Shown here: positions 5,326 to 17,027 of the stretch, in pieces
Layout: each line of letters starts with the position of its first letter
Numbering within the stretch: the stretch's first letter is position 1
Virus record (IMG/VR): IMGVR_UViG_3300029319_000238
Span: 1 to 33,151 of that record
Length of the DNA stretch: 33,151 bases
Direction: 5' to 3' (one strand)
DNA from: a virus
The notes under the pieces: model-generated
What the model saw: the letters and a program-made list of their open reading frames with translations, nothing else
The model's database searches: none
What the model was told of the DNA's origin: nothing
Translations under genes and position numbers: made by a program

Positions 5326-5662
5326 AGAGTCTAGGGTTACTACGTTTTGCTTGGAAATACAAGTATCTATTGATTGCTTTTGTACCCAATGCGGTAATAA
5401 AATATTTTCTTACAAGTCCAGGTGCTTTTGGATTTGCATATAACACGCGCTCATTGTCATGCATCTGTACTGATATGATGAATCCATAGCGATGCTCGAG
5501 CTGATGAAGTGTTGTGCTGATTGTTCCTTGCTTTAAGTCTGGCAGTTCCTTCCGAAAAGTAGAATATGATATTCGAGGAGGCTTTGGGTTTGACTTCTCT
5601 GTATATAGTTTTATTGTTGCAAGTATACGAACTTGATTAGACGTAAGTTTTTTCATGGTCAT
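5264..5662 (-). CDS. Winged-helix DNA-binding protein (MarR/PadR-like)
   Basis: A 132-residue protein. ATG 5662 is preferred (AAGGATACT upstream); the longest frame would begin with TTG at 5674. The region SNQVRILATIKLY...FRKELPDLKQGTISTTLHQLEHRYGFIISVQMHDNERVLYANP has the helix, helix-turn-helix and two-strand wing pattern of winged-helix regulators. The C-terminal third is basic with Tyr and Arg. It is followed by another DNA-binding gene, making a small regulatory pair in the middle of the early arm. Assignment is by pattern; the precise family is not established. Confidence 0.68.
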   Translation of the reverse strand: MTMKKLTSNQVRILATIKLYTEKSNPKPPRISYSTFRKELPDLKQGTISTTLHQLEHRYGFIISVQMHDNERVLYANPKAPGLVRKYFITALGTKAINRYLYFQAKRSNPRLYEKLFGTANYSIRESEGQFA

Positions 5663-5677
5663 AGTATCCTTCAAACT

Positions 5678-5704
5678 GGGGAGGCTTGTTGCCTCCCCTT
5701 TTTT
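5678..5704 (+). terminator. Intrinsic terminator facing against the early arm
   Basis: A perfect 8-bp GC-rich stem (GGGGAGGC at 5678-5685, GCCTCCCC at 5691-5698) with a TTGTT loop is followed on the plus strand by TTTTTT. On the minus strand the stem is preceded by A6 and followed by AGTTTG, so only rightward transcripts would be terminated. All genes here run leftward, so it would stop antisense transcription, for example read-through from the late arm. Confidence 0.72.
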
Positions 5705-5755
5705 GTATCAGACCACGCTGGTTACTGGATGGTGGTTTGTGCCAGAACTGATACA
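5704..5755. repeat. Long inverted repeat next to the antisense terminator
   Basis: TGTATCAG at 5704-5711 pairs with CTGATACA at 5748-5755, and ACCAC/GTGGT pair inside. With the adjacent terminator hairpin it fills the gap between two leftward genes. It could be an operator, an RNA processing site or part of the terminator. No family was recognised. Confidence 0.5.
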
Positions 5756-5757
5756 TG

Positions 5758-5937
5758 TTATGGTTGCATCTTCTGCTCGAGGATGTGTTCATAGACTTGA
5801 TCCATCAACTCTTCCATAGGAACGTTGACTGTCTTGATACCAACCTCGTCACAGAAGTTTAGAAGATCGATGCATGACATCCGTTGAACGGCATCACTTA
5901 CATCTTCTTTAAGTACCTCATTGGCTGGATGGGACAT
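5758..5937 (-). CDS. Hypothetical small acidic protein
   Basis: A 59-residue protein from ATG 5937 with AAAGGAG seven bases upstream; the TTG three bases earlier is not needed. It is acidic and helical (LKEDVSDAVQRMSCIDLLNFCDEVGIK, then MEELMDQVYEHILEQ). No motif was recognised. It overlaps the upstream gene by 20 bases in the early arm. Confidence 0.68.
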   Translation of the reverse strand: MSHPANEVLKEDVSDAVQRMSCIDLLNFCDEVGIKTVNVPMEELMDQVYEHILEQKMQP

Positions 5938-8416: not shown

Positions 8417-8467
8417 GTTTGTAACTCACTTTCATTGATATTGATTTTGTTTCATTTGGTCAGAAGT

Positions 8468-8673
8468 CGTGAAGCAATCTCACGCCAACACCTAGTCATC
8501 CCCACCCATCGCCGTGAGGCGATTAGATAGACTGCCATGCGAAGCATGGCTTAGTGATAAATGATACACGACGAAGGAGTGAAGATAGGCTGTGCGTTTG
8601 GCAGTTCAGGGGTATGGCATTGGGAAACGCACAGCAATACAGCGTCCAGCAAGCTCTGCTTGCCGGATGCTGT
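8468..8673 (+). ncRNA. Second structured RNA-like island
   Basis: The 264-base gap between the genes ending at 8416 (start side) and 8681 contains consecutive perfect stems: CGTGA/TCACG (8468-8484); ATCGCC-GTGA-GGCGAT (8508-8523), a GNRA tetraloop; GCCATGC-GAA-GCATGGC (8534-8550); an 11-bp stem GCTGTGCGTTT/AAACGCACAGC (8589-8599 and 8625-8635); and a long hairpin 8639-8673 built from ACAGC/GCTGT, GTCC/GGAT and GCAAGC/GCTTGC. The GTCC/GGAT helix has a G.U pair that exists only on the plus strand, so a rightward transcript is favoured. No protein gene was seen here. Identity unknown. Confidence 0.55.
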
Positions 8674-8680
8674 GACAATC

Positions 8681-8800
8681 TTAGATTGCAAGTAATAAGA
8701 TTGTTAGGATGATAAACCCAGCGAAGATCAAGAAACCTGATAGGCTGTCAAGTATCTTCCATGCAAGGGATTTATTGTGACGATCATATCGTTTGTACAT
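8681..8800 (-). CDS. Tiny single-span membrane protein
   Basis: A 39-residue ORF from ATG 8800, overlapping the stop of the upstream gene (TAATG), with AAAGGAG eight bases upstream. The head is basic (MYKRYDRHNKSLAWK) and the rest is a membrane helix (FLIFAGFIILTILLLAI) reaching the C-terminus, so the basic end should face the cytoplasm. As an early gene it could modify the host envelope or exclude other phages; that is inference. Confidence 0.72.
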   Translation of the reverse strand: MYKRYDRHNKSLAWKILDSLSGFLIFAGFIILTILLLAI

Positions 8801-8961: not shown

Positions 8962-9020
8962 GTGTGTCTCCTTGATAATGTGAGTGCCACCCTTTGAGGG
9001 GTGACACTCGTTGATGTCAG

Positions 9021-9752
9021 TTAGATATTGAACTCAGTAGAAGCCTTAGCTTTGACACGAAGTTTCTCCTTCATCTCAGATGCTCTCTTCTTGGTCTCTT
9101 CCTTTGCCTTTGAAGCAAAGTGTTGCTCAACCTTTTTGATAGTCTCAGGCTTGATGTATATCTCACCATCATTGAGTTTCATGTACCAAGACTCTATCCA
9201 AGCTTGAAACATTTTCATCTTTACAACTGTCTCTGAGTTGTAGTTGATACGATCTTGCTTGTGATCAGCTTGTACAGAATCAATCTTCTCATCTGCACAT
9301 AGGTCGTCTAGGTTGTCCTGATCTCTTGCGATCATCTGTTCCAATCCCTGTATGGCATTGTATTGATCCATACCAGTTGAGTTCCATAGATACTTTGGAA
9401 GTAATCTTTTGAAACCATACTGTCCGATTGGAACAATCTCATCGGAGAGTTCGAACTCGTTGTCGCCAACTTTCTTCTTGTGGACGTAACGCTTGTCATC
9501 GTCCAGTGCATCGATGTCGATGTGCTTGTCGTGTGGATTGTACCACTGACCCTCACCCTCGAAGAACCACTCGATGTGTGCCATCGATTTGCCAATGTCC
9601 ATATCTCGGAATTGACAATCCACATCTTTTTTGGATTTGTGCATCTTGTCCAACGCTGGCGCGATGTATTTAGTACGCATATTGTGTAACTGTTGCGTAC
9701 CAAATCGAAGTAACTTTTCACACTCACTAATAATATTTGTATAATTAGACAT
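9021..9752 (-). CDS. Hypothetical 243-residue protein, first gene of the early arm
   Basis: Starts at ATG 9752 (or 9755; two adjacent ATGs) behind AAAAAGGAGACT; 9752 gives the better spacing. Highly charged and mostly helical, with an N-terminal helix-rich region (ECEKLLRFGTQQLHNM), an acidic middle (HIDIDALDDDKRYVHKKKVGDNEFELSDEIVP) and a long Lys/Glu C-terminal helix (FASKAKEETKKRASEMKEKL). No motif recognised. As the leading, most strongly placed early gene it may act first in infection. Overlapping frames on both strands within it are shadows. Confidence 0.75.
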   Translation of the reverse strand: MSNYTNIISECEKLLRFGTQQLHNMRTKYIAPALDKMHKSKKDVDCQFRDMDIGKSMAHIEWFFEGEGQWYNPHDKHIDIDALDDDKRYVHKKKVGDNEFELSDEIVPIGQYGFKRLLPKYLWNSTGMDQYNAIQGLEQMIARDQDNLDDLCADEKIDSVQADHKQDRINYNSETVVKMKMFQAWIESWYMKLNDGEIYIKPETIKKVEQHFASKAKEETKKRASEMKEKLRVKAKASTEFNI

Positions 9753-9788
9753 CATAGTCTCCTTTTTAAAGTTAAAATAAAATAGACA

Positions 9789-9816
9789 ATCATACATTCA
9801 TAGGTATTGCCTACAA
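9789..9816 (-). promoter_or_regulatory. Candidate leftward promoter of the early arm
   Basis: On the minus strand, TTGTAG (9816-9811) and TATGAT (9794-9789) are separated by 16 bases, 37 bases before the start at 9752. The -10 matches 5 of 6 consensus bases, the -35 only 3. The location, heading the early arm and before its first gene, supports it more than the match does. Confidence 0.42.
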
Positions 9817-9869
9817 GTTTAGATAAGAGGTCAGGGTTTTCTTTGGATGTCATCGAGTATAAGAAAATG

Positions 9870-9889
9870 TGACACGCCAAAGCGTGTCA
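9870..9889. repeat. Stem-loop at the left edge of the divergent non-coding region
   Basis: TGACACGC (9870-9877) and GCGTGTCA (9882-9889) form a perfect 8-bp stem around CAAA. The plus strand continues GATTTTGTT and the minus strand CATTTTCTT, both weak T-tracts. It could be a modest terminator in either direction or a protein-binding site. Confidence 0.5.
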
Positions 9890-9961
9890 GATTTTGTTGC
9901 AAAAGCGAGGAGACAAGCGCGATCTTGCGCGCAGTAGAGGAGTATCTTTGCACGAGACCTG

Positions 9962-10023
9962 TTATAAATTTCGCGAGGACTTTTGACAACTACGGCTGTC
10001 AACAAGTCGGAGTAAATTTATAA
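9962..10023. promoter_or_regulatory. Large interrupted palindrome between the divergent arms (operator or origin candidate)
   Basis: Three nested perfect arms: TTATAAATTT (9962-9971)/AAATTTATAA (10014-10023), GACTT/AAGTC, and TTGACA (9983-9988)/TGTCAA (9997-10002). Each strand therefore carries a perfect TTGACA and, 30 bases on, a TATAA-type box: TATAAT on the plus strand (10019-10024), TATAAC on the minus strand. The 30-base spacing is too long for ordinary sigma70 promoters, so a protein-binding palindrome, an AT-rich unwinding site or a special divergent promoter is possible. Confidence 0.5.
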
Positions 10024-10029
10024 TGATTC

Positions 10030-10866
10030 CATAGAAAATTCTGACAGCCCTGTTGGAGATGAGCTGGCTCATCTCCCCACACGGCAAGTCCAAGTCAAGC
10101 ATCTTCATTCGCAGTTAAGCGTGTCCATGTGTAGCGAATGTTGCTTGACTCAGGCACGTCTTGTGTGTGCCTGAGCTGGCTTGGATCGAAATCGACCTTG
10201 CCACTCATAGACTACGAGACATCGTTATTCGGTTCTATCGTCCGAATGACTGGCTCGTAGGCAATGTTTGGCAAGTGGGCAAGAGATGTGAATTGTCTTG
10301 CAGAACAGAGTGGTGCCAATTGCTTGGCACTGCAAGATGGCGCATGGGATGATGCGCCACCCAAGATTTCTTACCCTTCTGTGAAGGGCAATACCTTTGA
10401 ATGAATGATAGTGTGCGCGTCGGCAATCGTTCAATCGATCCCACGCAAGGCTGGTGGACTGGGGTGCAAGCGATGCTTGCGCCATAAGGGAGACAGACTT
10501 GTGTGAGGTGAAGACCCAGCTCGACTGGGCGGCGACCCATAGTCGCCGTTGGACTTGCCATGTAGAGTGACGTAAAACATTGCGTGTGACGGACTCGTCA
10601 CACATGTCTTGCAATGTTTTGACGACAGATTAGTGATTTCCTTTGCGTCGAGACGCATTGGGAATCGCAACCCTCTTGGGCGATTTGCAAGGCAAATCGT
10701 GTGTCGTAGGAGTGGCGCACACAATATCGATTGGCGCGACTGCGCAATATGTCGGTGTGGGTTTGGCATGGTTGGCACACCGACTGCGATTGTTCAGCTG
10801 GACAACAGCGTTCTAGCGTATTTTGCTGGCTCTTTCGCCAGCTTGAATACAAGTATTCAAAATACG
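10030..10866 (+). ncRNA. Very large structured RNA candidate (about 840 nt, dense stem-loops)
   Basis: There is no credible protein gene between 9752 and 10951, but the stretch is packed with stems. They include GGAGATGAG/CTCATCTCC (10055-10076), AGTCAAGCA/TGCTTGACT enclosing CATTCGC/GCGAATG (10093-10150), CTACGAG/CTCGTAG (10212-10260), GTGCCAA/TTGGCAC (10313-10330), GGCGCAT/ATGCGCC (10339-10358), CGGCGAC/GTCGCCG (10530-10548), AAAACATTGC/GCAATGTTTT enclosing GTGTGACG/CGTCACAC (10574-10620), CGATTTGC/GCAAATCG (10681-10699), GTCGGTGTG/CACACCGAC (10751-10784) and a junction closed by CGTATTTT/AAAATACG (10817-10866). Four G.U pairs valid only on the plus strand (in 10463-10483, 10633-10668, 10790-10805) indicate a rightward RNA. 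Size and ornateness recall giant phage RNAs such as GOLLD; identity is not shown. Confidence 0.6.
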
Positions 10867-10871
10867 ATAGG

Positions 10872-10899
10872 TTGTGTTGTCGTGCAATCTTTGTAGAAT
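10872..10899 (+). promoter_or_regulatory. Candidate late promoter upstream of the small terminase gene
   Basis: TTGTGT (10872-10877) and TAGAAT (10894-10899) are 16 bases apart, with TTTG just before the -10 (extended -10-like). It lies between the end of the structured region and the small terminase start at 10951. A perfect TTGACA at 10914-10919 also occurs but has no matching -10 at the right distance. Moderate to weak evidence. Confidence 0.4.
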
Positions 10900-10950
10900 A
10901 TGAAATTAATGTATTGACAAGTAGACAGAAAATACGGCACAGTTGACGGC

Positions 10951-11319
10951 ATGACACTTGTGAAGATAACCGAGAAACAGAAGAAGCTGGTTGATACGTT
11001 AGTAGCAAAAGGATGCAGTATCAAACAGGCAAGTGATGAAGCTGGATATGCAAAGGGTGAATCAGGCAGAGTAACTGCTAGTAAGGCTTTGAGAACACCA
11101 CATGTGCAACAGTATATGATGCAAGCAATAGCAGACAACATGAGCATAAATGCTACGAAAGCGTTGAATAAGATAGTGCAACTGTCAAGCAATGCTAAGT
11201 CTGAATACGTTAGCCTTGAAGCTAGTAAAGATTTGCTTGATCGTGCTGGGTTCAAAGCACCAGATAAGGTAATGCATAGCCATGTTGGTAATGTCAATGT
11301 AAAGATTGATTTGTCTTGA
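10951..11319 (+). CDS. Terminase small subunit-like DNA-binding protein
   Basis: A 122-residue protein. The first half, TEKQKKLVDTLVAKGCSIKQASDEAGYAKGESGRVTASKALRTPHVQQYM, is the helix-turn-helix pattern of phage small terminases (a 'KQ..F...l..G.s..qAa..aGY' opening followed by 'a...l..p.v..yi'). The rest is a helical oligomerisation region and a beta-type tail (VMHSHVGNVNVKIDLS). It would recognise the packaging site and load the large subunit encoded at 12675. It is the first gene of the late arm. The ribosome-binding site is weak. A 33-residue-shorter start is not supported. Confidence 0.75.
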   Translation: MTLVKITEKQKKLVDTLVAKGCSIKQASDEAGYAKGESGRVTASKALRTPHVQQYMMQAIADNMSINATKALNKIVQLSSNAKSEYVSLEASKDLLDRAGFKAPDKVMHSHVGNVNVKIDLS

Positions 11320-11351
11320 TGCTTCTCTGTATACCATACGAGCTAGTGAAA

Positions 11352-11461
11352 GTATTTGCTTGTGACGCTTGCGGAGCGCGCAAATACACAGATATATATT
11401 GTCGTTGGCTTGCAATATCCTACTAACGCAGTGGGGGGTAAAAATTGGCAAGCCAATGACA
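11352..11461 (+). other. Structured intergenic element downstream of the small terminase (pac-site or RNA candidate)
   Basis: The 213-base gap 11320-11532 contains two strong stems. GTATTTGC (11352-11359) pairs with GCAAATAC (11380-11387) and holds an inner CGCT/AGCG hairpin. TGTCGTTGGCTTGC (11400-11413) pairs with GCAAGCCAATGACA (11448-11461) over 14 bp, with one G.U pair valid only on the plus strand; its 34-base loop contains GTGGGGGGT. Sites next to small terminase genes often serve DNA packaging, but the G.U pair favours an RNA or mRNA leader. No coding sequence was found here. Confidence 0.5.
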
Positions 11462-11532
11462 CGCAATGGTCTTGCCCTCACATTATTCTTGAAAAAAGCT
11501 CGTTATTGTTTTAAGGCTAGAAGAAAAGGAGT

Positions 11533-11871
11533 ATGAGTATGAGAGTTGGGGTAATGGTAGCTGGTCTACTTAAAAAGTTATTGCAAACAAAACAGAACGT
11601 AGATAGTCTTTCTGAAGAGGAGATTGTTCATGGCAAAGACACCACTGTGGCAACGCAAGGGAGGAAAGAATCCAAAGGGAGGGCTAAACGCGGCAGGAAG
11701 AGCGTCAGCTCGAAAACAAGGAATGAATCTCAAAGCACCAGTAAAGTCAGGAGACAATCCTCGAAGAGCAAGCTTTCTAGCAAGAATGGGAAACATGAAA
11801 GGACCGGAAAGAGACTCAAAGGGAAGACCAACGAGACTTCTTCTAAGTCTAAGAGCATGGGGAGCAAGTAG
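11533..11871 (+). CDS. Possible overlapping gene upstream of and through the DUF6321-like gene
   Basis: A 112-codon frame begins at ATG 11533 with a strong AAAAGGAG site. Residues 1-35 (MSMRVGVMVAGLLKKLLQTKQ, then VDSLSEEEIVHGK) lie outside other genes and look like real protein. From about 11630 on, it runs through the next gene in another frame and becomes Ser/Lys/Arg-rich low-complexity sequence. Either it is a true overprinted gene, or a short protein whose stop was lost, or the first part is fused by a frameshift. The initiation signal is convincing; the product is not. Confidence 0.4.
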   Translation: MSMRVGVMVAGLLKKLLQTKQNVDSLSEEEIVHGKDTTVATQGRKESKGRAKRGRKSVSSKTRNESQSTSKVRRQSSKSKLSSKNGKHERTGKRLKGKTNETSSKSKSMGSK

Positions 11872-11941
11872 CAAAGCTGATGCTCGAGCGAAAGCAAAAG
11901 CTATTAGTAAACGCAACAAAGCAAAGAAAGGTAAATCATGA
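11630..11941 (+). CDS. DUF6321-like small basic phage protein
   Basis: A 103-residue protein from ATG 11630 with GAGGAG seven bases upstream. It has the very conserved string of this family as I know it: WQRKGGKNPKGGLNAAGR, LKAPVKSGDNPRRASFLARMG, GPERDSKGRPTRLLLSLRAWGASSKADA, then a Lys/Arg tail. Such proteins are widespread near terminase genes in environmental phages; function is not known. The high positive charge suggests DNA binding or packaging. Confidence 0.8.
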   Translation: MAKTPLWQRKGGKNPKGGLNAAGRASARKQGMNLKAPVKSGDNPRRASFLARMGNMKGPERDSKGRPTRLLLSLRAWGASSKADARAKAKAISKRNKAKKGKS

Positions 11942-12075
11942 AACATACAATGGGTTCTATTCGAGATAAGAAGAATGGTAATGGTTTAACTGCCAAGCAG
12001 AAGACTTTACCAAAAGACCTTCAAGAAAAAATTATGAAGTCAAAGAAGAAAAAGAAACCTTTATATAAGGCATAG
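11938..12075 (+). CDS. Tiny basic protein
   Basis: A 45-residue ORF whose ATG (11938) overlaps the stop of the preceding gene (ATGA). Lys-rich, ending KSKKKKKPLYKA, with a middle LTAKQKTLPKDLQEKIMKSK that resembles a short helical 'Lys-Lys-Leu-Pro' linker seen in other phage basic peptides. One of five consecutive small basic proteins between the two terminase genes. Function unknown. Confidence 0.7.
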   Translation: MKHTMGSIRDKKNGNGLTAKQKTLPKDLQEKIMKSKKKKKPLYKA

Positions 12076-12078
12076 GTC

Positions 12079-12246
12079 ATGGCAGTTAATGCGGCTGGTA
12101 ACTATACCAAACCAAAGATGCGTAAAGCTTTATTCAACTCTATAAAAGCTAGAGCTGTTCAAGGTACGGCGGCTGGCAAATGGTCAGCACGAAAAGCACA
12201 ACTCCTGGCTAAACTTTATAAGAAACGTGGTGGTGGATATACCTAA
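12079..12246 (+). CDS. Tiny basic protein with conserved phage-like core
   Basis: A 55-residue ORF starting three bases after the previous stop and ending in TAATG shared with the next gene. The core NYTKPKMRKALFNSIKARAVQGTAAGKWSARKAQLLAKLYKK is the type of sequence seen in many phage and prophage small basic proteins (a 'Y.KP..R......K......G...G.WSARKAQ.L...Y' pattern). Role unknown; a DNA- or packaging-associated role is inferred from charge and position. Confidence 0.75.
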   Translation: MAVNAAGNYTKPKMRKALFNSIKARAVQGTAAGKWSARKAQLLAKLYKKRGGGYT

Positions 12247-12488
12247 TGAAGAAGTCACAGAGAAGCTTAAAGGCTTGGGGAGAACAAGACTGGCAAACGA
12301 AAAGTGGCAAGAAGTCTTCCGTGACTGGGGAAAGGTATCTACCAAAGAAAGCAATCAAAGCTCTTACAGCAGAAGAGTACGCACGAACCACAGCAGAGAA
12401 AAGAAAAGCAAAGAAGAAAGGGAAACAATTTTCTTCTCAACCAAAAGCGATTGCAAAAAAGACAGCACTCTATAGGAAATTTGCATGA
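12246..12488 (+). CDS. Small basic protein
   Basis: An 80-residue protein in the ATG-overlapping chain. Pattern: SLKAWGEQDWQTKSGKKSSVTGERYLPKKAIKALTAEEYARTTAEKRKAKKKGKQFSSQPKAIAKKTALYRK. The 'W....W.TKSGK.S..TGERYLP..AI..L...EYA.TT..KR.....G.QF..QPK.IA..TA.YR' layout is one I recall from many marine phages. Lys/Arg-rich; no catalytic motif. A frame shadow at 12227-12475 is rejected. Confidence 0.75.
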   Translation: MKKSQRSLKAWGEQDWQTKSGKKSSVTGERYLPKKAIKALTAEEYARTTAEKRKAKKKGKQFSSQPKAIAKKTALYRKFA

Positions 12489-12688
12489 GCTTTATAAACA
12501 ATCTCAAACCAGAAGAGCATAGATATTTACGACGCATAGTAAAAGAAATACACTTCCAATACTTTGATGAGAAGCATGGAGCTTCTTTCGTCACTAATAA
12601 AATGCTAGATAATGTCATCGAGAATATTGGACCTGAGGTTGCAGAGGCAATGATAAGAACTGGTGTAGATAAAGGTGACAGAGTTTAA
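12485..12688 (+). CDS. Small hypothetical protein before the large terminase
   Basis: A 67-residue protein from ATG 12485, overlapping the previous stop (ATGA) and running 14 bases into the large terminase gene. Unlike its neighbours it is not basic: helical with acidic patches (LKPEEHRYLRRIVKEIHF; NVIENIGPEVAEAMI). It could be a packaging partner or adaptor; no family recognised. Confidence 0.7.
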   Translation: MSFINNLKPEEHRYLRRIVKEIHFQYFDEKHGASFVTNKMLDNVIENIGPEVAEAMIRTGVDKGDRV

Positions 12689-14195
12689 GTACAAGCCTGA
12701 TGGCAATGTTCTAAAAAGTTTTATGAAGGATGATAGTTTCTTTCGTGGTATTCGCGGTCCAGTTGGTTCTGGTAAATCTGTTGGATGCTGTGTTGAGTTA
12801 TTCCGAAGAGCATTAGAACAGAAACCAAATGATGATGGAGTTCGGAAATCTCGATGGGCTGTTATTCGAAACACCAATCCCCAGCTAAGAACTACAACAA
12901 TCAAGACATGGTTAGACTGGTTTCCAGAATCAGACTGGGGTAACTTTCACTGGTCTGTTCCTTATACTCACCACATCAAAGTAAATGATCTAGACCTCGA
13001 AGTAATTTTTTTAGCCTTAGATAGACCAGAAGATGTAAAGAAGTTGTTGTCATTAGAACTCACTGGGATATGGATTAATGAAGCAAGAGAAATACCAAAG
13101 AGTATAGTTGATGCATGTACTATGCGTGTTGGAAGATATCCAAGTATGAGAGAAGGTGGTGCTAGTTGGTCAGGTGTTATCTGTGATACTAACGCACCAG
13201 AAGAAGATCATTGGTGGGCTATCATGTCAGGTGAAGTTCCCATCCCTGATCACATTCCTCGAGAGCAAGCAACCATGTTAGTTAAGCCTGACAACTGGAG
13301 GTTCTTTGCACAGCCTCCAGCTATGAAAGAACATATTAATGATAGAAAAGAAGTAACTTCTTATTCTCTGAATAAAGATGCAGAGAACCGAAAAAATATT
13401 TTAGAAACATATTATCCTAATCTGATAAGAGGTAAGACTAAGAACTGGATAGATGTTTATGTAATGAATAGGTTGGGTTTGATTCAGGAAGGTAAACCAG
13501 TTTATCCTGACTTTCTTTCTGAAACTCATATAGCTGATGAAGAGATTCCAGTTGCTGTTGGTATACCACTATATGTTGGGATTGACTTTGGCTTGACTCC
13601 TTCTGCTGTCTTTGGTCAGAAGGTGAGAGGTCGATGGTTGGTGCAAGCTGAGATTGTTGCTGTTGATATGGGTGTAGTTCGTTTTGCTGAGTTACTGCGG
13701 CAAGAGATTGCAACACGATTTAATGGACTTGATGTTTATATTTATGGCGATCCAGCTGGTGACTTCCGAGCGCAGACAGATGAATCAACTCCTTTTCAAA
13801 TACTAAGAGGTGCTGGATTGAAAGCTGTGCCAGCTCCTAGCAATAGTGTTGACCTAAGATTGGAATCTGTTTCTTCTCAACTAACTAAGATGGCAGAAGG
13901 ATTGCCAGCCTTTATGATTGATAGAAGATGTGTAACATTGATCAAAGGTTTTCAAGGTGGTTATTGCTATAGACGTATGCAAGTATCTGGAGAAAGATAT
14001 GACGATAAACCTGAGAAAAATATGTACTCTCACATCCATGATGCCTTGCAATATATGATGCTTGGTGCTGGTGAAGGACGTAGTTTGATGTCTGGACAGA
14101 AACCAGTCAAAGCCTTCAATGCAAGAAAAGGCTTTGATATTTTTAGAAGATCGCCTAATAATAAGAAAAGTAGCTCATTTTGGAATAGACTATAA
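12675..14195 (+). CDS. Terminase large subunit (packaging ATPase and nuclease)
   Basis: A 506-residue motor that pumps DNA into the prohead and cuts concatemers. The ATPase domain has Walker A GPVGSGKS at residues 28-35, the RWAVIRNTNPQL segment, and a Walker-B-like LTGIWINEAR at 129-138. The nuclease domain shows an RNase-H-like acidic triad at about Asp304 (YVGIDFG), Asp359 (YGDPAG) and Asp456 (HDALQYM). Length fits T7-like and related podovirus enzymes. The start is GTG at 12675 with a weak ribosome-binding site, translated by coupling to the overlapping preceding gene. Confidence 0.93.
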   Translation: MTEFKYKPDGNVLKSFMKDDSFFRGIRGPVGSGKSVGCCVELFRRALEQKPNDDGVRKSRWAVIRNTNPQLRTTTIKTWLDWFPESDWGNFHWSVPYTHHIKVNDLDLEVIFLALDRPEDVKKLLSLELTGIWINEAREIPKSIVDACTMRVGRYPSMREGGASWSGVICDTNAPEEDHWWAIMSGEVPIPDHIPREQATMLVKPDNWRFFAQPPAMKEHINDRKEVTSYSLNKDAENRKNILETYYPNLIRGKTKNWIDVYVMNRLGLIQEGKPVYPDFLSETHIADEEIPVAVGIPLYVGIDFGLTPSAVFGQKVRGRWLVQAEIVAVDMGVVRFAELLRQEIATRFNGLDVYIYGDPAGDFRAQTDESTPFQILRGAGLKAVPAPSNSVDLRLESVSSQLTKMAEGLPAFMIDRRCVTLIKGFQGGYCYRRMQVSGERYDDKPEKNMYSHIHDALQYMMLGAGEGRSLMSGQKPVKAFNARKGFDIFRRSPNNKKSSSFWNRL

Positions 14196-14206
14196 GGAGA
14201 ATAGAT

Positions 14207-14503
14207 ATGTGCTTTGGTGGTGGTGGTAGAAGTGAACCTGAGAGAACAAGTCCAGTTGTTGACCAAGAACAAAAAGAAAAAGAGAAAGAAGAAAAGAAAC
14301 GAACTATTGAACGGCGGCAAGAAGAAAAAGAACGCACTATTGCACAAGAGCAACCAATAAAAACATCACTCACTTATGAGACTGGAGCAAAGACTGGTCA
14401 GTCAGTTATGCGTGGAAGTAGAGGACGAAGAGCATTATACACTTCTGCTCGAGGTGGTATTGGATATAGAAGTCCAATGAGTGGTGGAGGAATGTACGGC
14501 TAA
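14207..14503 (+). CDS. Gly-rich/coiled-coil structural-region protein
   Basis: A 98-residue protein behind AAGGAGAATAG. The N-terminus MCFGGGG is a cap seen on small proteins next to podovirus portals. The middle is an extended Glu/Lys/Arg helix (EQKEKEKEEKKRTIERRQEEKERTI). The C-terminus is Gly/Arg/Ser-rich (MRGSRGRRALYTSARGGIGYRSPMSGGG). It ends on the ATG of the portal gene. Possibly an internal or neck protein; unproven. Confidence 0.75.
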   Translation: MCFGGGGRSEPERTSPVVDQEQKEKEKEEKKRTIERRQEEKERTIAQEQPIKTSLTYETGAKTGQSVMRGSRGRRALYTSARGGIGYRSPMSGGGMYG

Positions 14504-16059
14504 TGCATGATGAAGAAATCATAGATTCCTTTCTGAAAAAATACGACAGAGCAAAATCAGTAAGACAAAGATGGGAAAGTCTCTTTGATGAGTGCTATGA
14601 GTTTGCTCTGCCTATGCGACAAACTTTTGGAACAAATAGTATTGGCGAAAGAAGAGATGATAAAATTTTTGATGAGACTGCTGTTGTTGGTGTTCAGGAA
14701 TTCGCGTCAAGACTTCAGGCTGGTCTAGTTCCAAACTTTGCTCGATGGGCTGACTTTACTGCTGGTAGTGAAGTTCCGAAAGAACAAAAAGATGCTATTA
14801 ATAATGAACTTGAAGAGGTAACTGATTATGTCTTTGAGGTTATTCAGAACTCAAACTTCGGTCAGGAGGTTCATGAATCGTTTATGGATTTGGCAATCGG
14901 TACTGGTGTACTGCATGTCGAGGAGGGCGATGCTATTAATCCTATTAACTTTACAGCTCTGCCTCTTCCTCATGTTGTACTGGATGTTGGTCCTGACGAT
15001 AGGATTGATCATGTATATAGAGAGAGGGATATTCGGTACTCTGATATAATGGTTCTATATCCTAAAGCAACAATCAACTCTCGATTGCAATCTGTTATGA
15101 CTGCTAATCCAGAGGGAAGAACAAAGGTATTAGAAATAATATGTAAAGACTATTCTCAAATTAATGAGGATGCATACTTCTGTATTATCTTTGATATAAA
15201 TACAAAGTGCATGTTGAAGTATGAAACCTTCAAAGGTACTGGCAGTAATCCTTTTATTTGTTTTCGTTGGAGCAAAGATCCCGGCGCGATCTATGGTCGA
15301 GGTCCACTTATCAATGCATTGAGTGCAATCAAAACTACTAACCTTACAATAGAACTGATATTAGAAAATGCACAGATGGCTATATCTGGTGTCTATCAGA
15401 TGGATGATGATGGTGTTATCAATCCAGATACAATTAACTTAGTGCCTGGAACTGTAATACCTAAAGCACCAAACTCTGCTGGACTGCAACCAGTTCAAGC
15501 CGCTGGATCATTTGATGTTGCCAATCTTATTCTTTCTGATATGCGACTTAATATTAAGAGGGCATTGTATAATGACATGCTCGGAAATCCAGATCGAACA
15601 CCAGCAAGCGCAACAGAGATAGCAGAACGTATGGCAGATTTATCAAGACGTATTGGTTCGGCTTTCGGTAGACTCCAAGCAGAATTAGTTCAACCAGTTC
15701 TACAAAGAGTAGTATACATCTTGAAAAAGCAAGGACGTATTAACATACCAACAATCAATGGTAGGTCAGTCAAAGTTCGTTCTGTTTCACCACTTTCACA
15801 AGCACAAGCCAATCAGGATATTACATCTATCAATAGATTTTTAGAAATGGTTGGAGTGCGCTTTGGACCTGAGTTAGTAAATGTATTAATTAATTCAGAA
15901 GAGACAGCAATATACCTAGCTAAAAAATTTGGTATACCAGAGTATCTACTAAGAGACTTAGAAGAACGTAAACAGATTATAGCTATGGCTCAACAACTAC
16001 AACAACAACAAGCAATGATGCAACAACAAGGAACTATGGATGAACAAACTCAGCAGTAA
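14503..16059 (+). CDS. Portal / head-to-tail connector (T7 gp8-like)
   Basis: A 518-residue protein of the 'Bacteriophage head to tail connecting protein' family. Recognisable parts: the N-terminal RQRWESLFDECYEFALPMR, FDETAVVGVQEFASRLQAGLVPNFARWADF, the FMDLAIGTGVLHVEEG block (about 125-140), the long central stem region with RWSKDPGAIYGRGPLINAL, and AERMADLSRRIGSAFGRLQAELVQPVL near the C-terminal third, ending in a Gln-rich tail. Twelve copies form the DNA entry ring to which tail tube A docks. The following gene starts inside its end. Confidence 0.95.
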   Translation: MHDEEIIDSFLKKYDRAKSVRQRWESLFDECYEFALPMRQTFGTNSIGERRDDKIFDETAVVGVQEFASRLQAGLVPNFARWADFTAGSEVPKEQKDAINNELEEVTDYVFEVIQNSNFGQEVHESFMDLAIGTGVLHVEEGDAINPINFTALPLPHVVLDVGPDDRIDHVYRERDIRYSDIMVLYPKATINSRLQSVMTANPEGRTKVLEIICKDYSQINEDAYFCIIFDINTKCMLKYETFKGTGSNPFICFRWSKDPGAIYGRGPLINALSAIKTTNLTIELILENAQMAISGVYQMDDDGVINPDTINLVPGTVIPKAPNSAGLQPVQAAGSFDVANLILSDMRLNIKRALYNDMLGNPDRTPASATEIAERMADLSRRIGSAFGRLQAELVQPVLQRVVYILKKQGRINIPTINGRSVKVRSVSPLSQAQANQDITSINRFLEMVGVRFGPELVNVLINSEETAIYLAKKFGIPEYLLRDLEERKQIIAMAQQLQQQQAMMQQQGTMDEQTQQ

Positions 16060-16309
16060 CATATCAAGTCTCGATGGATATCCTAGAGATAAGATTGACG
16101 ATCAAAACATATCTTTAAATTTTGTTTCTCTGTTTAGCTCACCAGCTGGAGCAGAAGTATTAAAGTATTTACGCAGTGTAACAATAGAAGCTGTACATGG
16201 ATCAGCTGTAACTAATGATACACTTCGTCATGCAGAAGGTCAGCGATATATTGTTGGCTTAATTGAAAGACGTATACAACATGGACATAGGGTAAAATCA
16301 AATGAGTGA
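16040..16309 (+). CDS. Bbp19-like small structural-region protein
   Basis: An 89-residue protein starting at ATG 16040 within the portal's last codons. The core FVSLFSSPAGAEVLKYLRSVTI...GQRYIVGLIERRI matches the 'F...F.T.aG..VL..Lr..t......eGqR..v..I' pattern of the Bbp19-type phage proteins that sit between portal and scaffold in podoviruses. Function unknown, probably morphogenetic. Confidence 0.75.
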   Translation: MNKLSSNISSLDGYPRDKIDDQNISLNFVSLFSSPAGAEVLKYLRSVTIEAVHGSAVTNDTLRHAEGQRYIVGLIERRIQHGHRVKSNE

Positions 16310-17027
16310 AGAACAAACACAAGAAGCACAACCACAAGAAGAACAGCAGACTATTGAAGTACCTCAAGAGTACGCTGATGAAAGACCGAAATGGTTACCT
16401 GAAAAGTTTAAGACTCCTGAAGACTTAGCTAACTCTTACGCAAATCTTGAGAGTAAGTTTGGTCAGAAAGAAGATGAAATACGCAATAGTGTTATGAAAG
16501 AGATTGAAGAGAAAGCGTATTCTGAAAGACCAGCAACTGCTGGAGACTATGTTGTTCCTGAAATTATTGATGCTGAAGAAGCTGTTGATAATGATCTTCT
16601 TGACTGGTGGGCTGATCATTCTTATGAGAATGGATTTTCTCAACAAGAGTTTGAGAATGGTATTCAAAAGTTTTATGAAGCGACAACTGGTGGATATAAT
16701 GCAGATGCAGAGATGGAGCAGTTAGGTGATAACGCACAAGAAAGAGTAGAAGCTGTTGGATTGTTTGTTGAGAAAACATTCAGTGAGGATACTCGATCTG
16801 CTATCGATGATCTCTGCTCAACAGCAGAAGGAATAAAAGCTATGGAGATTATTATGCATAATCTCAAAGAGAACCCTGTGTCTGGAACATCACAGCCAAC
16901 TGCTACACTTACTGATGATAAGCTTCGAGAGATGATGAATGATCCTCGATACTATAGTCCAAACCAGCGTGACCCAGCCTTTGTCAAAATGGTTGATGAA
17001 GGATTTAGAAAGATGTATAACAGATGA
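16302..17027 (+). CDS. Capsid assembly scaffolding protein (T7 gp9-like)
   Basis: A 241-residue, acidic, Glu/Gln-rich protein with no predicted globular core. Landmarks are PKWLPEKFKTPEDLANSYANLESKFG near the N-terminus and the GDYVVPEI...NDLLDWWADHSYENGFSQQEFENGI helix, typical of T7-like scaffolds, with a basic-hydrophobic C-terminus (KMVDEGFRKMYNR) that would bind coat subunits. It is placed as usual, just before the coat gene region. Its stop overlaps the ATG at 17024 (ATGA). Confidence 0.9.
   Translation: MSEEQTQEAQPQEEQQTIEVPQEYADERPKWLPEKFKTPEDLANSYANLESKFGQKEDEIRNSVMKEIEEKAYSERPATAGDYVVPEIIDAEEAVDNDLLDWWADHSYENGFSQQEFENGIQKFYEATTGGYNADAEMEQLGDNAQERVEAVGLFVEKTFSEDTRSAIDDLCSTAEGIKAMEIIMHNLKENPVSGTSQPTATLTDDKLREMMNDPRYYSPNQRDPAFVKMVDEGFRKMYNR

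Follow-up and report, generated by a model that had tools for sequence, protein, structure and literature searches.

The window, i.e., the whole stretch of DNA analysed, is a virus record of 33,151 bases, from a small marine-type phage, with two divergent gene blocks separated by about 1.2 kb in which no credible gene lies. At 10951, the gene of the small terminase subunit (TerS) opens the right block; genes for TerL, the head-tail connector, the capsid, and the tail come after it. The left-hand neighbour of the gap encodes a product without a match in Pfam or PHROG; its predicted structure was of moderate confidence, and an informative fold match was not found. The homologues of this gene in relatives range from 90% down to about 19% identity. 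Its start is probably near 9749, behind a ribosome-binding site, rather than at 9797, and the non-coding stretch is therefore nearer to 1.2 kb than to the 1.15 kb given in the first-pass annotation, which was right about its non-coding nature. The putative RNA gene in the gap takes up about 3% of the 33-kb genome. No tRNA or tmRNA was predicted in the window by ARAGORN. The features of the locus are as follows:

9021-9749, minus strand: left-hand neighbour gene of unknown function (start inferred; homologues aligned)
9830-10888, plus strand: putative gene of a large structured non-coding RNA (folding z -10.4, covariation in homologous gaps, no ORF intact across relatives); ends approximate, the 5' end from the closing helix and the 3' end from the conserved boundary ahead of TerS
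9830-10047, plus strand: 5' domain with closing helix 9830-9841/10036-10047 (GUCAGGGUUUUC/GAAAAUUCUGAC)
9899-9951, plus strand: 5' purine-loop module GCGAGGAGACAAG ... GAGGAG, lying between the variable stems UGCAAA/UUUGCA; shared with types B and D
9960-10025, plus strand: helix 9960-9974/10012-10025 with inner helix 9978-9990/9995-10008 (three and one compensatory changes, respectively, in L032)
10094-10149, plus strand: nested stem GUCAAGCA/UGCUUGAC and CAUUCGC/GCGAAUG (fold z -3.6)
10188-10370, plus strand: M2 multibranch domain closed by GAAAUC/GAUUUC (10188-10193/10365-10370)
10195-10278, plus strand: M2 core, an 84-nt module conserved in types A, B, and C
10407-10728, plus strand: central domain closed by GAUAGUGUGCGC/GCGCACACAAUAUC (10407-10418/10715-10728)
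10574-10620, plus strand: two-step perfect stem AAAACAUUGC/GCAAUGUUUU and GUGUGACG/CGUCACAC (fold z -5.4)
10633-10668, plus strand: stem GUGAUUUCC..UGCGU/ACGCA..GGGAAUCGC (fold z -4.5)
10751-10784, plus strand: hairpin whose G-rich loop GGUUUGGCAUGGUUGG is conserved while its stem changes
10812-10871, plus strand: 3' three-way junction, common to type D
10889-10950, no strand assigned: conserved element ahead of TerS, outside the RNA, with TTGACA at 10915-10920; similarity to L002 resumes at 10890
10951-11319, plus strand: TerS, the right-hand neighbour (Pfam PF03592, PHROG 2538)

Pelagibacter phage EXVC031P Hodr was recognized as the nearest annotated phage (64% identity in TerL and 58.5% in TerS), and the phage group described here is related to this cultured pelagiphage. 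Among annotated phages, only Hodr carries this TerS, and none gave a match at the DNA level; in the genome collection, one relative was found via TerS (L108, 58%). As the only annotated isolate with this TerS, Hodr (L082, OQ414635) offers a cultured entry point. It has a shorter gap at about 5594-5930, which is strongly structured (z -6.5 on the plus strand and -2.0 on the minus strand).

For 9830-10900, the minimum free energy of the plus strand is -450 kcal/mol against -354 ± 9 kcal/mol in dinucleotide shuffles (z -10.4), and that of the minus strand is -401 against -296 ± 8 (z -12.9). There are 23 stems of at least seven Watson-Crick pairs in 9798-10950, compared with 8.4 in shuffled sequence. 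The first-pass annotation, which had claimed a dense set of stems, is borne out by this count and by the plus-strand z; its nested stems at 10093-10150 and 10574-10620 and its three-way junction at 10817-10866 also lie where it had placed them, each far stabler than shuffles. Tiles of 200 nt within the gap have plus-strand z from -2.4 to -5.2, against a mean of -0.55 (SD 1.26) for the remaining genome. Among the 200-nt plus-strand windows with the lowest energies genome-wide, most begin at 10001-10701; the fourth lowest begins at 8501, in a second structured element. No ORF of the gap stays intact across the window and its relatives L004, L032, and L005, so a hidden protein gene was rejected, in line with the annotation. 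Neither iterons nor direct repeats were found, and no clear promoter or terminator was identified.

A search of viral contigs with TerS gave 316 encoding stretches, of which the best 80 were fetched. In relatives close enough for comparison, the slot upstream of TerS is occupied by a gap of 0.55-1.15 kb, often with higher G+C than its surroundings. Most of these gaps fold better than shuffles, and the plus strand usually beats the minus strand. According to sequence, they were sorted into type A (the window, L004, L032, and L005), type B (L010, L012, L029, L030, and L034, plus L086, L089, and L096), type C (L021-L023), type D (L002, L003, L006-L009, L011, L014-L016, and L019), and type E (L017, L018, L020, L025, L027, and L028, with L024 related). 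Modules are shared among the types: M2 is present in A, B, and C, the 3' junction in A and D only, and the 5' module in A, B, and D. The more distant L065 and L067 also have strongly structured gaps upstream of TerS (plus-strand z -10.5 and -9.8, respectively), in which similarity to the RNA of the window was not detected; possibly, these are further RNA types in the same slot.

Covariation was evaluated against 40 column-shuffled alignments in which gap patterns and local conservation were kept. Consensus energies of the types analysed are 8-14 SD below these controls: -591 against -448 ± 12 for type A, -376 against -303 ± 9 for type B, and -355 against -243 ± 8 for type D. Pairs with changes on both sides number 49 in type A (26.5 ± 4.5 in the null, maximum 35) and 65 in type D (29 ± 5, maximum 42). 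In type B there are 24 (16 ± 4), which is inside the null range with its maximum of 27, and this type is thus backed by energy only. Long-range support comes from a 12-bp helix of type D, the counterpart of the window helix 9830-9841/10036-10047. Its segments lie 250-320 nt apart and are 12/12 paired in all 11 sequences, in five versions and with seven two-sided changing pairs, as revealed by a helix search independent of the energy model. Five type D helices have at least three two-sided changing pairs, compared with no such helix in each of four shuffles and two in a further one. Homologous gaps without stems or covariation, or with a protein gene, would have refuted the first-pass annotation; instead, the gaps of the relatives carry stems, are non-coding, and covary strongly, including at long range.

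Comparison with L032 indicates how far the individual helices of the window can be trusted. In the minimum free energy fold of the window, 29 pairs changed in a compensatory manner, 84 are broken, and 55 are gapped, so this exact single-sequence fold is only partly right and the consensus helices are a better guide. In the closing helix of the 5' domain, two pairs changed compensatorily and one is broken. In the nested stem at 10094-10149, the outer helix is poorly kept and the inner one has two compensatory changes. The closing helix of M2 has three of its six pairs changed compensatorily and none broken, and that of the central domain has two compensatory, two broken, and seven unchanged pairs. 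One compensatory change from A-U to G-C and no break were found in the two-step stem 10574-10620, and four compensatory and two broken pairs in the hairpin 10751-10784. The 3' three-way junction, which type D shares, has six pairs with two-sided changes and is 91.8% paired, against 31-42% when slid. A loop-loop pseudoknot joining the CUAUCG loop near 10235 to CGAUAG near 10865 was rejected: the window could form it, but L032 lacks CGAUAG.

Across types, the 7-bp outer helix of the M2 core is wholly rewritten, yet paired in every sequence. A covariance model of M2 recovers types A, B, and C and misses D and E, and scans of viral contigs with exact M2 patterns matched 14 contigs, the identical 14 both times. 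A purine-rich loop CGAGGAGACAA with variable flanking stems is common to types A, B, and D. Loops of the form (G/U)YCUAUCR cap hairpins on unrelated stems repeatedly, within and between types, and CTATC has the highest hairpin-loop fraction among pentamers common in the gaps (16/29, with a background of 15%). From this recurrence, it is inferred that the loop may make a tertiary contact or bind a protein.

The stretch 9830-10888 is probably, though not with high confidence, the gene of a structured plus-strand non-coding RNA of about 1.05 kb that most likely acts in trans and is exchanged as a cassette. Its structure, covariation, lack of coding content, conserved position, cassette exchange, and absence from known families are observed here. 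The main rival is a role in cis, in which the right-arm transcript would begin with the stretch as a very long, structured 5' leader, such as a put- or EAR-type element of processive antitermination or a timing element. TerS follows the stretch directly and has the same orientation, and no terminator was found between them on the plus strand. Set against this, TATTGACAAG is conserved about 38 nt upstream of the TerS start codon in types A-E and in L024, and its TTGACA, in the interval that separates the RNA from TerS, may belong to a promoter of its own. The element 10889-10950 has no clear -10 box or ribosome-binding site, and it may be either a promoter or packaging-related. The known antitermination RNAs are far shorter than about 1 kb, which also counts against a leader. 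A leader is regarded as unlikely, but not to be dismissed.

The strand of the putative RNA gene was approached through pairs that hold on one strand only. The four G.U pairs named in the first-pass annotation all exist, but the strand argument built on them alone is not significant. Among all stems of the window there are 12 G.U against 8 A.C, where composition expects 1.4:1, and among all gaps 201 against 141, not significant after composition is considered (p = 0.08). Consensus folds were also calculated with G.U pairing disallowed and retained only where both strands gave the prediction. At their varying positions, G.U pairs number 51 and A.C pairs 21 (p = 0.006, composition ratio 1.25); leaving out an element at 8440-8700 changes the counts to 43 and 21. 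In all three groups, the plus strand also has the better consensus energies and one-sided consistent changes. From these sequence comparisons, the plus strand appears moderately favoured, but it is not proven. Points against a plus-strand RNA gene are the equally strong z of the minus strand, the stem-only G.U count and type B pair count, neither of which is significant, the many broken and gapped pairs in the comparison with L032, and the lack of transcript data and of a clear promoter or terminator. A structured RNA of the minus strand, either a leader of the left arm or an antisense RNA, could account for the whole-region minus-strand z of -12.9, but in view of the 51 to 21 excess, the three groups, and the better plus-strand z in most gaps, it is improbable.

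Equally improbable is a replication origin or a cluster of palindromes acting as DNA cruciforms, with compensatory changes arising by template switching within palindromes. Many perfect hairpins, a location at the point of divergence, and structure scores on both strands would suit it. A folded RNA, unlike a cluster of independent DNA hairpins, should have long-range covarying helices, such as those spanning 250-320 nt, and loops that stay conserved while their stems change. The G.U excess and the absence of direct repeats or iterons also disagree with a DNA-level element.

The exchange of the RNA gene is seen in the comparison with L002. The two genomes are 94% identical up to 8928 and 76% in 9003-9778; similarity is undetectable in 9779-10889, and from 10890 to 16319 they are 97.2% identical. 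L002 to L007 have a 100% identical TerS, and only L004 among them carries the RNA of the window throughout. With near-identical flanks and identical TerS around unrelated cores, the RNA was exchanged, or diverged, as a unit bounded just before TerS, ahead of which only the last 60-74 nt stay conserved. In several relatives, the left neighbour gene diverges along with the RNA; this coupling is not strict, as no homologue of the left gene was detected in L032, whose RNA is of type A. The pattern suggests, by inference, that diversifying or frequency-dependent selection acts on the RNA. Near-identical phages whose main differences are the RNA cassette and the left neighbour gene provide natural experiments. 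Recognition of the stretch by TerS as a pac/cos region, or its action as an analogue of phi29 pRNA, is suggested by its adjoining the small terminase gene, but is improbable because the RNA core is unrelated in most phages with identical TerS and the conserved last nucleotides before TerS fall outside the RNA.

For the preferred trans-acting RNA gene, rightward transcription would start between the two arms, where the divergent promoters are expected. The RNA would fold into domains closed by long-range helices (5', M2 multibranch, central, and 3' three-way junction) and, alone or within an RNP and possibly in oligomeric form, would most likely act in trans during infection, as proposed for GOLLD and ROOL; the cassette would pass between phages by exchange. 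Transcription, the RNA ends, and the trans-acting function are inferred, and transcript data are not available.

A second structured and covarying element was observed in the left arm at 8440-8700 and is present in at least nine relatives. Its pairs with changes on both sides number 16, where shuffles give 6 ± 2 (maximum 13), and its 8 G.U against 0 A.C positions indicate plus-strand polarity, opposite to the surrounding genes. It had no match in Rfam. In L002, it also has the GUCUAUCA hairpin loop, as in the main RNA. A wider reading, which is only tentative, treats this element as a sister RNA within a superfamily of kilobase phage RNAs that occupy one fixed slot with exchangeable architectures built from shared modules (the 5' purine loop, GUCUAUCR-capped hairpins, and the 3' junction), and that act in trans under diversifying selection against host defence or rival phages.

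No family matched when the whole window was compared with Rfam (4227 families), no credible match was found for the gap region at E up to 10, and the relatives had none apart from one tRNA in L044. Membership in GOLLD, ROOL, OLE, or HEARO was rejected, as none of their covariance models matched; the view of the first-pass annotation, which had proposed this search, that membership cannot be claimed and a new family is possible, stands. Within the literature that was searched, no description of this RNA was found. To our knowledge, only a handful of non-ribosomal RNAs of bacteria and phages come near a kilobase, and those of phages have no known purpose. Here, a kilobase-scale RNA absent from Rfam occurs in a group related to cultured Hodr.

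OLE and HEARO are likewise large ornate non-coding RNAs, but not of this phage group, and their Rfam models do not match. The phi29 packaging RNA, of about 120-174 nt, is also a structured phage RNA, linked with packaging; the RNA found here has no Rfam match to a described packaging family, and it is not conserved jointly with TerS but changes while TerS stays identical. GOLLD has a universally conserved 3' region and a less conserved 5' region and forms a homo-oligomeric nanocage, and ROOL is an abundant discrete transcript. GOLLD is a giant RNA of phages and prophages, in many cases over 800 nt, and ROOL is a large structured RNA of phages and prophages without a known protein partner (PMC12286853). 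By size, phage origin, and complexity, these two appear to be the closest known kind. The RNA of the window resembles ROOL in being a large structured phage RNA, but has no Rfam model match and no tRNA island. At about 1.05 kb, it meets the length and non-coding criterion of GOLLD (about 800 nt or more, phage-encoded), and it shares with GOLLD a phage-encoded length of about 0.8-1 kb and an ornate multi-domain fold with variable and conserved parts. The GOLLD model of Rfam matched neither at the gathering score nor at E up to 10, in the relatives as well, and ARAGORN placed no tRNA in the window, whereas GOLLD often lies by tRNA islands, a criterion that is not strictly defining. Unlike GOLLD, this RNA sits between divergent arms beside TerS and is exchanged as a cassette. 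Most likely, it is a large phage RNA of the GOLLD and ROOL kind, with its function inferred, and belongs to a new family.
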